Assembly (NCBI GenBank): GCA_031270525.1
Contig: JAISXN010000206.1
Span: 1-10,987 of the forward strand
Length of the DNA: 10,987 nt
From: Candidatus Symbiothrix sp.
GTDB taxonomy: Bacteria > Bacteroidota > Bacteroidia > Bacteroidales > Azobacteroidaceae
Reading direction: 5' to 3'
Shown: positions 1,514 through 6,963 of the stretch, piece by piece
Position numbering within the stretch: position 1 is the stretch's first letter
Layout: each line of letters opens with the position of its first letter
Position numbers and translations under genes: made by a program
Notes under the pieces: generated by a model
Told to the model about the DNA's origin: nothing
The model's database searches: none
The model's input: only the letters and a program-made list of their open reading frames with translations

Positions 1514-3733
1514 ATGACTATTTTTAGGCAGTATTTTTTTTTCAATGGTTTGATAGAGACTGATTCGCATAAAAGTTTGTATAAGAGTTATTTTTTATAT
1601 CTCTGTATTTGTATTTTCCCCATTTTTTGTGTGGAAGCGCAAGAACCATACGGCAAAGCCGACGATATATTGTCGAAAATGTTTGAATATCAGGAGTATT
1701 ACGGAAAATATATTGATGAATTTGACGCCGACATATATATCAAAGGAAATAGTTATGTAAAGAAAAAAAATATTCTTTACCGCTATGCCCCCGATTTTTT
1801 GTACTTAGATAAAAAAGGCAAAAACACCTTTGTCGAAACAATCCTCAAGGTTCATTTCAAACAGCCGGATTTGTTTTCGCACCGGATTGTTGCAGTTAAT
1901 GGAGCGAAAATTAATATGATTGATATTCAGGAACGGGTTATTCAATTTTTGAAAAACAATACTTACAATCCTAAAATCGTTGACGAACAAATACTTCTCC
2001 CTTGGACGAAAGGCGCTGCCAAATATTATCGTTACGAATATCTCTCGCAAACCGATACCTTGAATCATGTTATACATCAAATAAAGGTAACGCCTAAAGT
2101 AAAAAGTTTGCAATTGGTTTCCGGCATTTTTTCCGTTGTGGACGGACAATGGACGATTTATCGCTACAATATTAAAGGAAAATGGGAATTTTCAAAATTT
2201 GAAATTTCAACGGAATTTGGGCTGGGTGGCAAGGCTTTCCTGATGCCTTTGAAAACAGATATTTATTTCAAAACTCAATTGTTGGGAAATGACGCTGAAA
2301 GTTATTATTTTGCAACATTTGATTATATTTCCCTCAAAAGAAAACATTTAGAACAAGAACCGGAAACGGTTAATTACGATTTAAGCGATTATTTCTCAAC
2401 ACCTGTCGATTCATTGCCTTTTGTCGAAGATGAAATATTTTGGACCGAAAGCCGGAAAGTTTCACTTACTCCTGAAGAAAAAGCGCATCTGATAAGTTCA
2501 GATTCCATAAATGCGGATTTTCAAAAAAATGCAAGGTCCGATTTCTGGATAAAACTATTGGATATCCCCAAGGGAATCATCACTTCCCGCCGCTTTGATT
2601 ATAACGACTCAAAAATGAGCTATTCCGGTTTGTTGAATCCGTTCAAGCTGGCATATTCGAAATGGGACGGAGTGGTTTACTGGCAGCAATTCCGTTTCTT
2701 CAAACGCTATGAAACGGGACAGGAAATACAGTTCAAACCCGATTTGGGTTTCTTGTTTCAACGCAAGCAACTTTATTTCAATACGCCGGTATATTGGCTG
2801 TTTCAGCCGCGTAAATTCGGGGAAATCAATTTTAATTTTGGAAACCGGAACCAAACCTATAATTCCAAATTCATTGATTTGATTACGAACGAGATTCCGG
2901 ATTCCATCCGGTTCGAAGATTTGAACCTGGATTATTTCCACCATTTCAAAATGAATTTAGAAGGGAAATATGAAATCTATAACGGGTTGATTCTCAGAGG
3001 CGGGGTTAACTATGACTGGTATATTCCTATCAAGAAAGAAAATGATGGGAAAAGCGCATTGCGGTCAAGCCTCGACATAACCGAAGATATCAAAGGTTTA
3101 ATTGATGAAAATTACAAGGCTTTTTCTCCTATGATCGGCTTGATGTGGACGCCTCGTCAATATTACCGGTTCAATGGAAAACGAAAGGAGTATCTTGGCT
3201 CGCGGCTTCCCATCTTTTCGGTAGAGTATGTATGGGGGCTGGATAAATTCCTTGGAAGCAACAGCAACTATTCCAAAATAGAAACAGATATTCAACAAAA
3301 AATTCCGATAGGTTTAATGAATTCTTTTCAATATTACATTGGAATGGGGAAATTTCTTAATACACGGTCGGTTTATTTTGCCAATTTCAATTATTTTCAA
3401 CGGCACAATTTTCCACAATCGTGGGAAGACCCTATCGGAGGCGTTTTTCATTTGTTGGAGGGCGAATGGTACGATGCGTCTGATTCTTACATACAAGCGC
3501 ATTTTATGTATGAATTTCCGTCCACTGTTCTGCGCTGGTTCCGTGGCATAAGTAAAGATATTTTGAAAGAACGTATCTATATCAGCCAGTTATATACACC
3601 GGTTCGCCCATTTTATACCGAATTGGGATACGGTGTAGGTAATTTCATTGGCAATGCCGGAGTGTTTGTTTCGCTCCGGCATTTGAGATATGAAGCGGTT
3701 GGAGTTAAGTTTGCGTTTGAATTGGGGAGATAG
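1514..3733 (+). CDS. DUF5686-family outer membrane protein
   Basis: A 739-codon protein with the look of the Bacteroidota DUF5686 family, whose function is not established. The N-terminal ~45 residues hold a signal peptide (YKSYFLYLCICIFPIFC, cleavage likely after VEA at about residue 42). The mature N-terminus (ADDILSKMFEYQEYYGKY) is followed by a soluble region with repeated strand patterns. The C-terminal half is rich in alternating aromatic and polar strands (YRFNGKRKEYLGSRLPIFSVEY, ELGYGVGNF) and ends in AFELGR, as expected of a beta-barrel. The carboxypeptidase-regulatory-like domain often found at the front of these proteins is missing. From the ATG the signal peptide sits unusually deep; a TTG at 1577 (codon 22) would give a standard signal peptide starting LYKSYFLYL. 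The gene stands alone and converges on the ATPase gene. Confidence 0.75.
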   Translation: MTIFRQYFFFNGLIETDSHKSLYKSYFLYLCICIFPIFCVEAQEPYGKADDILSKMFEYQEYYGKYIDEFDADIYIKGNSYVKKKNILYRYAPDFLYLDKKGKNTFVETILKVHFKQPDLFSHRIVAVNGAKINMIDIQERVIQFLKNNTYNPKIVDEQILLPWTKGAAKYYRYEYLSQTDTLNHVIHQIKVTPKVKSLQLVSGIFSVVDGQWTIYRYNIKGKWEFSKFEISTEFGLGGKAFLMPLKTDIYFKTQLLGNDAESYYFATFDYISLKRKHLEQEPETVNYDLSDYFSTPVDSLPFVEDEIFWTESRKVSLTPEEKAHLISSDSINADFQKNARSDFWIKLLDIPKGIITSRRFDYNDSKMSYSGLLNPFKLAYSKWDGVVYWQQFRFFKRYETGQEIQFKPDLGFLFQRKQLYFNTPVYWLFQPRKFGEINFNFGNRNQTYNSKFIDLITNEIPDSIRFEDLNLDYFHHFKMNLEGKYEIYNGLILRGGVNYDWYIPIKKENDGKSALRSSLDITEDIKGLIDENYKAFSPMIGLMWTPRQYYRFNGKRKEYLGSRLPIFSVEYVWGLDKFLGSNSNYSKIETDIQQKIPIGLMNSFQYYIGMGKFLNTRSVYFANFNYFQRHNFPQSWEDPIGGVFHLLEGEWYDASDSYIQAHFMYEFPSTVLRWFRGISKDILKERIYISQLYTPVRPFYTELGYGVGNFIGNAGVFVSLRHLRYEAVGVKFAFELGR

Positions 3734-3736
3734 GAA

Positions 3737-4927
3737 TTAGACATCAAACAATTTTTCCGGGTCCGAGCTTAAAAATTCTTCCGGCGGAATGCCGTCTGTT
3801 CCAACGATAAACAGCCGTTTGGGGTGAAAAGTTTCATTGAAAACCGACATTCCGTTGTTGCGACTGTCCTTGCCGCTTTTCACTTCAATAGCAATAGATA
3901 CACCGTCCTTTTCAATCACAAAATCTACCTCGCAATTGCTCTCGTTCCAATAATAGAGATTGAATTTTTTAGCGGCAACAGAATTCATTAAATGCTGACC
4001 CACAGCCGATTCCACCAGCCGTCCCCACAGTGAGCGATCGGTTTTCGCTTTGGCAAAAGTTTGGCTCAACTGCGAACTGAACAGCGCATTGTTGAATACC
4101 TGAAATTTTGGTTTGGCTGCCCGCTGTCGAATATTTCTACCGGTATATTTTTCCAGACCCGCCAATAAACCGGCATTTTCCAGTAATTTCAAATAATTCG
4201 ACAGCGTAGTTAAATTTCCTTTTTCCTGCAAGTCGCCCTGTACTTTATTCATCGCGACAATCTGGGCAGAATACACGCTGCCGATTTCAAACAAACGTCG
4301 CAGTAATGCAGGTTTTTCCACTTTTGTCAGCATCAGAATATCTTTGGAAATACTCGTTTCTACCAGAGAACTTTTGATATAATTTTTCCAACGGTACTCA
4401 TCTTTAATCAACTTAGCAGAACCGGGATAACCGCCATACCAAATATATTGCTCCAAATTCCAACCGAAAGCATCATGCATTTCGGGATATGTCCAATGCG
4501 GAATGTATAGGGATTCAAAACGTCCTGCCAACGATTCGGTCAGCCCTTGTTGTATCTGCAAACTTGAAGATCCCATCAAAACAATCTTCAGGTTGATATT
4601 CGTCCGCCCGTCTTCATCCCATTCTTTTTTGACGGTTTCGCTCCAGTTATCCACCTTTTGCACTTCGTCGATAATCAAAAGAAAACACTCATCGGACGAG
4701 GCGGCCAAGCGGCGGCGAGCTTCGTCCCAAGTCGCTTTGATCCACGTGCGGTCTGCGGCCGGCACATCGTCGGCTGTAACATACATTGTTTCATACGATA
4801 GTTGCTCACATAGTTGCAAAATCATTGTGGTTTTTCCAACCTGCCGCGGACCGTAAAGAATCTGAATGAAATTCCGTTCTTCATTCATCCGTTTTACAAG
4901 CTCCTGAATATAACTCCGAACAATCAT
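3737..4927 (-). CDS. AAA ATPase with DUF4143 / nuclease-fold C-terminus
   Basis: A 396-residue ATPase of the AAA_14 plus DUF4143 architecture, common in bacteria and archaea but with no settled role. Walker A is GPRQVGKTT (26-34), Walker B is LLIIDEVQ (83-90), a sensor-1-like GSSS lies at 119-122 and a putative arginine finger in LAGRFE at R136. A helical, winged-helix-like middle part (YLKLLENAGLL) follows. The C-terminus carries a PD-(D/E)xK-like signature, D335 in EVDFV and E348-x-K350 in IEVKSG, so the restriction-endonuclease-fold residues look intact; nuclease activity is not shown for the family. The ATG at 4925-4927 lies just before MIVRSYIQELVKR, the usual start. It is a single-gene unit whose upstream region carries the phased dyad array, suggesting tight or autogenous control. 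Its coding DNA is patchily more GC-rich than the neighbouring DUF5686 gene, which is compatible with, but no proof of, transfer. Confidence 0.9.
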   Translation of the reverse strand: MIVRSYIQELVKRMNEERNFIQILYGPRQVGKTTMILQLCEQLSYETMYVTADDVPAADRTWIKATWDEARRRLAASSDECFLLIIDEVQKVDNWSETVKKEWDEDGRTNINLKIVLMGSSSLQIQQGLTESLAGRFESLYIPHWTYPEMHDAFGWNLEQYIWYGGYPGSAKLIKDEYRWKNYIKSSLVETSISKDILMLTKVEKPALLRRLFEIGSVYSAQIVAMNKVQGDLQEKGNLTTLSNYLKLLENAGLLAGLEKYTGRNIRQRAAKPKFQVFNNALFSSQLSQTFAKAKTDRSLWGRLVESAVGQHLMNSVAAKKFNLYYWNESNCEVDFVIEKDGVSIAIEVKSGKDSRNNGMSVFNETFHPKRLFIVGTDGIPPEEFLSSDPEKLFDV

Positions 4928-4939
4928 AAATGAATAATT

Positions 4940-5113
4940 TTATTAGTTTAATTGAATAATTTATTTAGGTTGACCTAATAAATTTTTTATGCAAAGGTAA
5001 ATAAATTATTTCATTCATGAAAATATTTTATTCATTATTTTTGAATATTTATTTAGTTTGAACTAAATATTTATTTAGGCTTATCTAAATATTTTATCAG
5101 ATAATTCTAAATA
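4940..5113. repeat. Array of about eight 22-bp-phased dyad elements
   Basis: Dyad centres fall at 4949.5, 4971.5, 4993.5, 5015.5, 5038, 5059.5, 5081.5 and 5103.5, a step of 22 bp (21.5-22.5). The strongest are TTAGGT-TG-ACCTAA (4965-4978), TTTCAT-TC-ATGAAA (5009-5022), TATTCA-N7-TGAATA (5029-5047), TATTTAGTT-TG-AACTAAATA (5050-5069) and TATTTAG-N6-CTAAATA (5072-5091). The units 5050-5071 and 5072-5093 are direct repeats matching at 18 of 22 positions. The copies at 4949.5, 4993.5 and 5103.5 are degenerate. A 22-bp step is about two helical turns, so bound dimers would lie on one face of the DNA. The array covers the predicted promoter and leader of the ATPase gene and ends 12 bp before its ATG. 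Confidence 0.7.
4992..5022 (-). promoter_or_regulatory. Predicted promoter of the AAA/DUF4143 ATPase gene
   Basis: TACCTTTG (4992-4999, minus strand, followed by CA) is an exact match to the Bacteroidota -7 element TAnnTTTG. TTTC (5019-5022) lies 19 nt upstream as a 3/4 match to the -33 TTTG. Transcription would start near 4985, giving a leader of about 57 nt. The -7 box lies inside the dyad at 4993.5 and the -33 box inside the dyad at 5015.5, so a protein filling the array would block RNA polymerase. Confidence 0.55.
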
Positions 5114-5130
5114 AACAATTTCATCAAGCA

Positions 5131-5187
5131 TTCTCAACCGACTTTGCATTTAAAAAAGTTATCAACCAAAACCCCAACTTATCAACA
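5131..5187 (+). other. DnaA-box-like 9-mers; possible origin element
   Basis: TTATCAACC (5159-5167) and TTATCAACA (5179-5187) are spaced exactly 20 bp apart. The second differs from the classical DnaA box TTATCCACA at one position. A third relative, TTCTCAACC, lies at 5131-5139. They sit between a very AT-rich dyad array and parAB, and gene orientation changes from mostly minus to all plus here. These traits are shared with many chromosomal origins, but no dnaA gene is in the window and two or three near-matches are weak evidence. Confidence 0.3.
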
Positions 5188-5286: not shown

Positions 5287-6051
5287 ATGGGAAAAATAAT
5301 TGCTTTGGCAAATCAAAAGGGAGGCGTGGGTAAAACCACCACTACTATTAATTTAGGCGCTTCCTTAGCGGCGATGGACAAAAAAGTGTTGATAGTAGAT
5401 GCCGACCCCCAGGCAAATGCCTCTTCAGGGTTGGGAATCAATATCAGGGAATTAAAAAAATCAATTTATGAATGTATTATCGAAAATATAGACCCCAGCC
5501 AAGCTATACTTCCGACCGAAGTGCCTAATTTGCATATCATTCCTTCTCATATTGATTTGGTGGGCGCCGAAATCGAAATGTTGAACTTCAAGGATCGAGA
5601 GAAAGTGTTGAAAGAATTATTAAATAAGATAAAAGATAAATACGATTATATCCTGATTGATTGTTCGCCTTCATTGGGTTTGATTACCGTAAATGCATTG
5701 ACGGCAGCCGATTCGGTAATAATTCCGGTACAGTGTGAATATTTTGCTCTGGAAGGAATTTCCAAATTGTTGAACACGATTAAAATCATCAAATCGAAAT
5801 TGAATCCAGAACTGGAAATCGAAGGTTTCCTGCTGACGATGTATGATTCCCGCCTGCGTCTGGCCAATCAGATTTACGAAGAAGTGAAAAAACATTTCGG
5901 AGAGATGGTCTTCAATACGGTTATTCAACGGAATATCAAACTGAGCGAAGCGCCGAGTTACGGACAACCGGTATTGCTCTACGACGCCGATTCGAAAGGC
6001 TCGCACAACCATATCCAATTAGCGAAAGAATTGATTGCAAAAAATAAATAA
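5287..6051 (+). CDS. parA: ParA/Soj chromosome-partitioning ATPase
   Basis: A 254-residue Soj-type ParA, full length for chromosomal members. It dimerises on ATP, binds DNA non-specifically and is driven off by ParB, which moves or positions the origin region. The deviant Walker A is KGGVGKTT (11-18) with signature lysine K11 and P-loop lysine K16. Walker A' is VDADPQ (37-42), Walker B is YILIDCSPS (121-129, D125), and the conserved LSEAPSYGQP lies at 219-228. There is no N-terminal helix-turn-helix, so it is not a plasmid type Ia ParA that represses its own operon. It is the first gene of the plus-strand operon, with parB 6 nt downstream. The ATG at 5287 begins exactly at MGKIIALANQKGG, the usual start. 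Confidence 0.97.
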   Translation: MGKIIALANQKGGVGKTTTTINLGASLAAMDKKVLIVDADPQANASSGLGINIRELKKSIYECIIENIDPSQAILPTEVPNLHIIPSHIDLVGAEIEMLNFKDREKVLKELLNKIKDKYDYILIDCSPSLGLITVNALTAADSVIIPVQCEYFALEGISKLLNTIKIIKSKLNPELEIEGFLLTMYDSRLRLANQIYEEVKKHFGEMVFNTVIQRNIKLSEAPSYGQPVLLYDADSKGSHNHIQLAKELIAKNK

Positions 6052-6057
6052 TTCAAT

Positions 6058-6963
6058 ATGTCGAAACAAACGAAATCTGCTCTGGGAAGAGGTTTGAACG
6101 CATTGATTACCATGGACGACCTGAACACAAACGGTTCTTCGTCCATCAATGAAGTGGAATTATCCAAAATAGAAGCCAACCCCGATCAACCGCGTTCCGT
6201 CTTTGACGAAGAAGCTTTGGAAGAACTGGCAACTTCCATCAAAGCCTTGGGATTGGTGCAACCGATTACCTTGCGCGAAATCAGACCCGACCGTTACCAG
6301 ATTATTTCGGGCGAACGGCGGTATCGGGCTTCCCTCATGGCCGGTCTTACTTCCGTTCCCGCGTACGTCAAAAAAGCAAGCGACGAGAATATTATGGAAA
6401 TGGCGCTTATCGAAAATATTCAGCGCGAAGACTTGAATCCCATCGAAATTGCACTGGCTTTTCAAACCTTAATCGACACGCACAACCTGACGCAGGAAAA
6501 ACTGAGCGAACGAATCGGGAAAAAACGAGGCACAATCGCTAATTTCTTACGGCTGCTGAAACTTCCTGCCGAAATCCAGATAGGTCTGAAAGACAAAAAG
6601 ATAGATATGGGACATGCCAAATCTTTGCTTTCGCTCGAAAATGCTTCCGACCAACTGATGATTTACGAGGAAATCAAAGAATACGGATATTCGGTTCGCC
6701 ACACGGAAGAAATTGTAAAAAGCATTAACAATCCGCAAGAGCAAGAAACGGACGAAGCGCCCTCTCCTACCCCAAGTTCACCCAGGAAAAAATCGTCCGG
6801 GAAATACGATTCATATAAAAAACAATTGTCGGATATTTTCGACGCCAGAGTTTCTGTCTCAAGCAACGAAAAAGGTACCGGAAAAATCAGTATTCCTTTC
6901 ACAAATGAAAATGAATTAACAAGAATTATGCAAGTATTTGATTCTATAAAAAATAATTCGTAA
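6058..6963 (+). CDS. parB: ParB/Spo0J centromere-binding CTPase
   Basis: A 301-residue chromosomal ParB. It loads at parS sites, slides as a CTP-dependent clamp and stimulates ParA. The N-terminal ALGRGLNALI (8-17) is the ParA-stimulating peptide. The nucleotide-binding domain has NPDQPR (41-46), GERRYRA (85-91) and ENIQRE followed by DLNPIE (119-130), all intact. The parS-recognising helix-turn-helix is at about 143-169 (LTQEKLSERIGKKRGTIANFL). A low-complexity linker (about 230-250, rich in P, S, E, K) leads to a C-terminal dimerisation domain (about 252-301). Translation starts 6 nt after parA. No full parS palindrome was seen in the window. A DUF5683 gene follows after 33 nt. Confidence 0.97.
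   Translation: MSKQTKSALGRGLNALITMDDLNTNGSSSINEVELSKIEANPDQPRSVFDEEALEELATSIKALGLVQPITLREIRPDRYQIISGERRYRASLMAGLTSVPAYVKKASDENIMEMALIENIQREDLNPIEIALAFQTLIDTHNLTQEKLSERIGKKRGTIANFLRLLKLPAEIQIGLKDKKIDMGHAKSLLSLENASDQLMIYEEIKEYGYSVRHTEEIVKSINNPQEQETDEAPSPTPSSPRKKSSGKYDSYKKQLSDIFDARVSVSSNEKGTGKISIPFTNENELTRIMQVFDSIKNNS

Follow-up and report, generated by a model that had tools for sequence, protein, structure and literature searches.

A phased 22-bp array before a candidate defence ATPase gene: a putative operator with copies in phages

In the AbiE type IV toxin–antitoxin system, AbiEi reportedly binds in a cooperative manner to inverted repeats of its own promoter and autoregulates (PMC7319586). 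Here we describe an array of 22-bp repeats before the gene for a DUF4143 ATPase in a 10 987 bp stretch of DNA from Candidatus Symbiothrix sp. (contig JAISXN010000206.1; the whole stretch is called the window), which we propose to be the operator of that gene. The likeness to AbiE is that a phage-defence gene would be autoregulated through promoter repeats; moreover, sites similar to the ones that precede AbiEi genes occur in the same phage mosaics as the array. The systems differ in that the protein family is another one and that a single gene, for an ATPase without an AbiE domain as the putative binder, takes the place of a pair of AbiEi and AbiEii genes.

Transcriptional control of phage-defence genes has also been described for BrxR-type WYL regulators and for RptR (PMC9122601 and PMC12255303). 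These are separate regulator proteins, whereas we propose that the candidate defence protein of the window regulates itself. Extra binding sites are known to disturb an autoregulatory loop (PMC4374843, PMC7826281); in these papers the decoy sites are genomic or engineered, in contrast to the phage-borne operator collections considered here. Operators, the autoregulation of AbiE and titration by decoys are all established principles. In the openly licensed PubMed Central literature, DUF4143 is named in a single paper, which concerns Argonaute, and we found there no prior report of repeats before genes of PDC-S01, the candidate family of the window ATPase, or of phage-borne collections of defence operators.

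Plasmid replication initiators read iterons, direct repeats of about 22 bp, through winged helices. The likeness lies in the repeat length and the winged helix; the window has no replicon or initiator gene. The archaeal AAA+ ATPases SSO1545 and PABY2304 are 17% and 13% identical to the window ATPase, and we know of no operator array for either.

The array in the window and before related genes

The array lies in an AT-rich stretch between the ATPase gene (3737–4927, minus strand, 396 residues) and parA, which starts at 5287. Nine rows of 22 bases (4921–5118, no strand) run from the ATPase start codon across the leader and promoter region. Identity at lag 22 is 0.602, compared with a mean of 0.371 (standard deviation 0.034) in 5000 dinucleotide-preserving shuffles. 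No shuffle reached 0.602, whether at lag 22 or elsewhere between lags 8 and 66. In the window, the second-best lags are 66 and 44. The 22-bp periodicity was thus confirmed. The two clearest units, TTTAG-N6-CTAAAT twice at 22-bp pitch, occupy 5053–5096, with centres after 5059 and 5081.

A preliminary description of this DNA had reported about eight dyad centres at a 22-bp step between 4940 and 5113. The array extends slightly beyond this interval. The phase of the centres held: on average 6.38 of 10 positions are paired, against 4.68 (standard deviation 0.27) in 2000 shuffles, none of which scored as high. Good symmetry is limited to five of the eight centres (7, 7, 7, 9 and 7 of 10), the other three (5, 4 and 5) scoring about as high as the shuffles do on average. 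Of the two signals, the phased direct repeat is stronger than the dyads. The units had also been said to contain a −7 and a −33 box. The sequence TACCTTTG (4992–4999, minus strand), identified by reading and located within a unit, is what we take to be a −7-like box; no TTTG-like −33 box was seen about 20 bp upstream of it on reading the sequence.

To judge recurrence, we used the best 80 of 476 confirmed loci from a scan of named genomes, 79 of them with enough upstream DNA (L107 was left out of the counts), and 129 upstream regions of other genes within the same loci as control. The controls have a GC content of 0.38, the relatives of 0.28, a difference that is corrected by the shuffles. Among lags of 12 to 55, a lag of 22 gives the best self-match in 59.7 of the 79 relatives (ties split), where 1.84 are expected from shuffles, and in 3.3 of the 129 controls. 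Lag 22 is significant at P ≤ 0.05 in 70 relatives and six controls, and at 0.01 in 65 relatives and no control; nine relatives fall short of the weaker threshold. Phased sites over the gene's own promoter are therefore kept in relatives. Close relatives with the gene and without phased symmetry, which would have spoken against an operator, are few. The commonest form, before the start codon, is close to TTTACTCAATATATTGAGTAAATTTACTCAGTATATTGAGTAAAAT; the motif differs between classes, and the type of the window was found in seven loci. According to record titles, this commonest form is not confined to Bacteroidota but extends to Chlorobiaceae, Deltaproteobacteria, Nitrospirae, Chlamydiae, Acidobacteria, Verrucomicrobia, Anaerolineae and others; as the records outside Bacteroidota are metagenome bins, some may be misbinned.

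The array might be a recently copied microsatellite without function. It is indeed an AT-rich tandem repeat, but its diverged units remain in phase, and the relatives keep the pitch while the motif changes. We agree with the preliminary description in disfavouring this explanation, which retains next to no probability. Nor does the stretch appear to belong to parA and parB or to a replication origin. ParA-like and ParB genes lie directly beyond the array (5287–6963), and AAGTTATCAAC and AACTTATCAAC repeat upstream of parA at 5156–5166 and 5176–5186, 20 bp apart, presumably resembling DnaA boxes. However, the array abuts the ATPase start and stops about 170 bp short of parA, and in relatives it precedes the ATPase gene, which makes this assignment highly improbable.

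In several relatives, units lie between a −7-like box and the start codon, as would be expected if they acted as hairpins of an attenuating RNA leader. We regard this as very unlikely, because window units are found upstream of the −7-like box as well, a pitch fixed at 22 bp would suit sites on DNA rather than hairpins, and some motif classes are direct repeats. The simplest reading is still the one suggested in the preliminary description, an operator whose several sites are occupied cooperatively on one face of the DNA, and the comparison of upstream sequences supports it; the further term 'multi-dimer' is too narrow, because direct repeats with this pitch but without an evident dyad occur in some clades.

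A search for further sites of the window motif in its own genome (53% complete) yielded three forward and three reverse matches, compared with four and two for the control. The matches correspond to four sites, two of them inside the array; since their number is close to that of the control, no regulon is visible. The word TGAGTAANNNTACTCA was matched in seven of 20 genomes, in part away from the contigs of known orthologues (two matches in G038, one in G035 and two in G034).

Motif classes, paralogues and the predicted winged helix

While the pitch is constant, the motif varies with the protein tree. We distinguished the classes GAGTA, CTAAT (that of the window), GAGAAT, GAACAT, GAAGAT and GGAGAT, sorted by eye and then by pattern. 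Five loci of uncertain class (L052, L081, L100, L122 and L027) were left out of class counts and column tests, and L072, a frame of 116 amino acids, was left out of the tree. In the tree, which comprises 88 proteins, all seven CTAAT loci group together in a single clade with a value of 99 in the Shimodaira–Hasegawa-like approximate likelihood ratio test, and the motif classes require at least eight changes.

Residues 205–278 of the ATPase (codons at 4094–4315, minus strand) form a winged helix in an AlphaFold2 model and hold six of the 10 alignment columns most associated with motif class (P = 0.004, uncorrected for relatedness). We propose this domain as the reader of the array. Residue 269 is Arg or Lys in all 68 rows of the GAGTA and CTAAT classes and Tyr in all 15 others, and it is again Arg in a GAGTA group nested among Tyr rows. 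A change of Asn-227 to Thr accompanies GAGAAT against GAACAT at two separate places. The clade-only column test was made without the near-duplicates L108, L117, L103, L109 and L121 and the uncertain L122. Between distant pairs (divergence 0.3–0.6), the recognition parts reach 0.86–0.98 of the mean divergence where the motif changes and 0.72–0.83 where it does not, a modest excess.

The genome of the window contains eight matches to DUF4143, of which two score below the cut-off of the family. Several of these paralogues have private repeats reaching the start codon, with differing motifs. A wider set of 83 paralogue loci was reduced to 74 by removal of six without a recognisable ATPase frame and three with too little upstream DNA. 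Direct repeats are significant in 33 of the 74, compared with nine of 56 control upstream regions, and inverted repeats in 17, compared with three of the controls. The pitch is 32 or 33 bp, about three helical turns, in 22 of the 33 paralogues with direct repeats. In 84 further upstream regions from a phylum-wide search, palindromes close to the start codon are frequent as judged by eye, without scoring. Long palindromes such as TTATACAATTTGCG...CGCAATTTGTATAA were seen before many DUF4143 genes of other lineages (loci L316–L402, within 60 bases of the start codon).

The preliminary description had named the ATPase itself and an unlinked repressor as possible binders. The evidence leans to the ATPase because the motif tracks the protein tree, the motifs of paralogues are private and the associated columns cluster in the predicted winged helix. 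If each ATPase lineage were instead controlled by a regulator from outside, a large number of separate regulators would have to exist, since the array accompanies the ATPase across phyla and paralogues of one genome differ in motif. The position of the associated columns within the ATPase also argues against such regulators. In their favour, similar AbiE-type operators stand before different proteins (see below), and closely related pairs that switch motif lack an excess of changes in the winged helix. Altogether, control by an unlinked host regulator appears unlikely.

Both Pfam domains of the window ATPase score above their cut-offs (DUF4143, 89 bits; AAA_14, 82 bits), and the PADLOC profile PDLC04791 of PDC-S01 matches residues 1–394 of 396 with an E-value of 4e-174. 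By this full-length profile match, the protein is a member of a candidate defence family, and protection against phages is a candidate function. Within codons 333–350 (3878–3931, minus strand), Glu-333, Asp-335 and Glu-348 are invariant and Lys-350 is nearly so in 59 sequences. These conserved acidic residues with an ExK sequence are what we take to be a PD-(D/E)XK-like motif. A sequence search of the PDB with the window ATPase found no relative, the best E-value being only 0.61. In PMC12988326, PDC-S01 is described as an ATPase fused to PD-(D/E)-X-K and ranked as the fourth most common defence across prokaryotes; validation is stated there to be pending for most PDC candidates. A gene for a CRP-like regulator (710–1408) and a DUF5686 gene (1514–3733) are located close to the ATPase gene in the window.

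Array copies in viral contigs and their bacterial counterparts

A GAGTA array pattern that allowed pitches of 19 to 23 matched at least 120 stretches of the IMG/VR collection, and all 121 matches in these 120 loci have a pitch of exactly 22. The reversed pattern had no match in the collection. No homologue of the DUF4143 ATPase was detected in the 120 loci or in 12 further ones (tblastn, E-value 1e-5; the stretches are often part of a contig). All 120 GAGTA-class loci thus carry copies of the array without the gene in the DNA covered. Of six contigs tested, five have recognisable phage proteins: a terminase (L246), a portal protein (L207), a single-strand-binding protein and a primase (L500), a primase/helicase (L264) and an endolysin (L217). 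For the sixth, L507, none was recognised among two proteins tested.

The window-class pattern TTTAG-N6-CTAAATA-N(2–6)-TTTAG-N6-CTAAAT matched eight viral contigs, six of them at pitch 22 (the near-identical L498–L501 and the near-identical L496 and L497). According to maps of the open reading frames (ORFs) of L496, L499 and L500, the sites of these three are intergenic or overlap the last codons of a single-strand-binding-protein gene. The matches in L494 and L495 have a pitch of 21 and resemble coding repeats by appearance. Seven viral contigs matched GAGAATTTT. Three of these (L502, L506 and L507) have pitch 22 and no ATPase, the site in L506 lying within a frame that runs off the end of the contig, and three (L503, L505 and L508; pitch 24, 21 and 21) again look like coding repeats. 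The remaining contig, L504, encodes a GAGAAT-class ATPase (247–1517), 79% identical to that of L092, together with its own 22-bp array. Matches to the paralogue motifs TTTGCGRTTGTAAYCGCAAA and AGGGATTRYRATCCCTNAA, in one and nine viral stretches, were rejected as arrays; no ATPase homologue accompanies them, and by eye they look like chance matches in coding DNA.

The GAGTA module mostly stands in a mosaic of other motifs. Of the 120 loci, 76 contain ATCAAAACTTG, 43 the TCAATCATT pair and 35 an AbiE-type operator, and four other motifs were found in 7 to 22; none of these seven patterns occurs in 21 loci. The combined patterns gave a single match in 555 355 bases of the same loci more than 2 kb away. 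Searched alone, the ATCAAAACTTG pattern matched 47 viral stretches, 35 of them within loci already in the set, and the AbiE-type pattern added one viral contig, L509, again in a mosaic. One mosaic had no match at an E-value of 1e-5 among 50 697 named phage records. In L208, L229 and L241, the viral array at the TTGAG site is embedded in GC-richer sequence, unlike the AT-rich mosaics.

In the first 80 viral loci listed, ORFs of more than 150 amino acids contain none of the sites. Flanking gene families link these loci into eight groups, and the module neighbours are reshuffled, with 25 sequences before, 26 after and 50 combinations. The viral sites might control phage genes through a host or phage protein, or might let a host protein recognise the phage. 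Operator-like in this sense is L507, a 116-kb viral contig in which a two-unit GAGAATTTT array (5846–5881) immediately precedes the start of a phage gene, after a terminator-like hairpin. Control of one gene is unlike what the mosaics show, as they juxtapose shuffled motifs of several unrelated host genes and the sites occupy differing places in phages. We consider these alternatives to decoys rather unlikely.

Bacterial counterparts of the modules were sought by BLAST. One mosaic gave matches in 101 of 395 genomes of the phylum (E-value 0.05) and a second in 22 of 395 genomes of the class (0.003). We examined 59 loci (30 from the first mosaic and all 29 listed from the second) and 19 weaker matches of the first. 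Words common to 158 bacterial upstream regions and the mosaics are in weak excess (for example 12 15-mers, against 5.5 in shuffled and two in reversed sequence). The long module GAGCCG...CGGCTC had no match within three mismatches in 247 genomes.

Fourteen of 20 matches to the TTGAG module lie within 160 bp upstream of an ATPase start, some of them in the same site or array. Three of six ATCAAAACTTG matches are 20–23 bp before genes for AAA_14/DUF4143 ATPases (L486, L490 and L491). Three of four matches to the AbiE-type module precede AbiEi_2 genes (L416, L422 and L466), and a weaker one lies 121 bp upstream of an AbiEi_3 gene (L446). Another site is 94 bp before the TTG start of an AAA_14/DUF4143 gene (L482), and one precedes a DUF6088 gene (L483). 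As an internal control, 14 matches that fall in the AT-rich tail of the first mosaic, like 13 other matches, have no ATPase neighbour (blastp for the ATPase only). Most of the 19 weaker matches are inside ORFs or without a nameable defence neighbour. A weak AbiE-type match in L445 (2061–2097) overlaps the start of a 178-residue protein without Pfam match, possibly an unrecognised defence gene. The AbiEi_2, AbiEi_3 and L445 proteins are the different proteins referred to above in connection with an unlinked regulator.

Finally, the repeats could be the ends or insertion sites of a mobile cassette carrying the ATPase, with the viral copies as empty sites or recombination seeds. Matching sites in G293, G330 (C1:257102–258417) and G564 are about one gene length apart, some flanking one ATPase gene, and in two loci (L423 and L474) a site is located behind the stop codon of an ATPase gene. 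Repeats at both ends are not the rule, since only four of 75 loci have at least two motif words within 150 bp past the stop codon; we consider a mobile cassette with terminal repeats improbable and rejected it.

A putative operator and possible phage decoys

In our proposal, the array serves the ATPase gene as its operator and has the ATPase itself as its most likely binder, and the viral copies act as decoys; we put the probability at about 0.6. The ATPase would read the array via the winged helix of its DUF4143 region. The sites are two helical turns apart, so that subunits may stack on one DNA face over promoter and leader, and the bound ATPase would limit its own synthesis. Motifs private to each lineage would prevent cross-regulation among paralogues. 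Tailed phages appear to carry copies of the array joined to operators of other autoregulated defence genes, namely those of other DUF4143 ATPases and AbiE-type antitoxins. Many such sites, multiplied by replication of the phage genome, would soak up the host proteins. For the wider notion of phage operator banks, recombining non-coding patchworks of sites of DUF4143 lineages, AbiE-type and DUF6088 genes that pull defence proteins off their own circuits, we see even odds.

Several points weigh against the operator and its decoys. The motif classes were drawn up after the sequences had been read, and in five close pairs with a motif switch the winged helix is not enriched in changes overall (P = 0.81 to 0.997). 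Neither repeat type is significant at 0.05 in 33 of the 74 paralogues. Not all bacterial matches precede a gene of the expected kind: six of 20 TTGAG matches do not (one, L468, is further upstream in the array that holds two counted matches, and one, L423, follows an ATPase stop codon), nor do three of six ATCAAAACTTG matches (that of L474 follows the stop codon of the L490 ATPase, and two have no such neighbour) and one of four AbiE-type matches. PADLOC lists neither of the two AbiEi_2 proteins tested (L416 and L422; no families), and the toxin-like second gene scores below the Pfam cut-off for AbiEii in L416 and has no match in L422. For at least three further mosaic motifs, no bacterial match has been assigned. 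The benefit to the phage is not obvious either, because titration of an autorepressor should raise its synthesis. For a decoy to help, the bound protein would have to be prevented from acting, or the host response would have to suffer from a disturbance of dosage or timing.

The lineage-specific phased array, together with the matching predicted winged helix, allows a direct test of binding for members of PDC-S01 and the prediction of a site for each member. If the viral mosaics are decoys, they would represent a counter-defence consisting of DNA sites instead of proteins. Their modules would then list, in readable form, the defence regulators encountered by phages, and could expose, through their operators, defence genes that have not been recognised so far.
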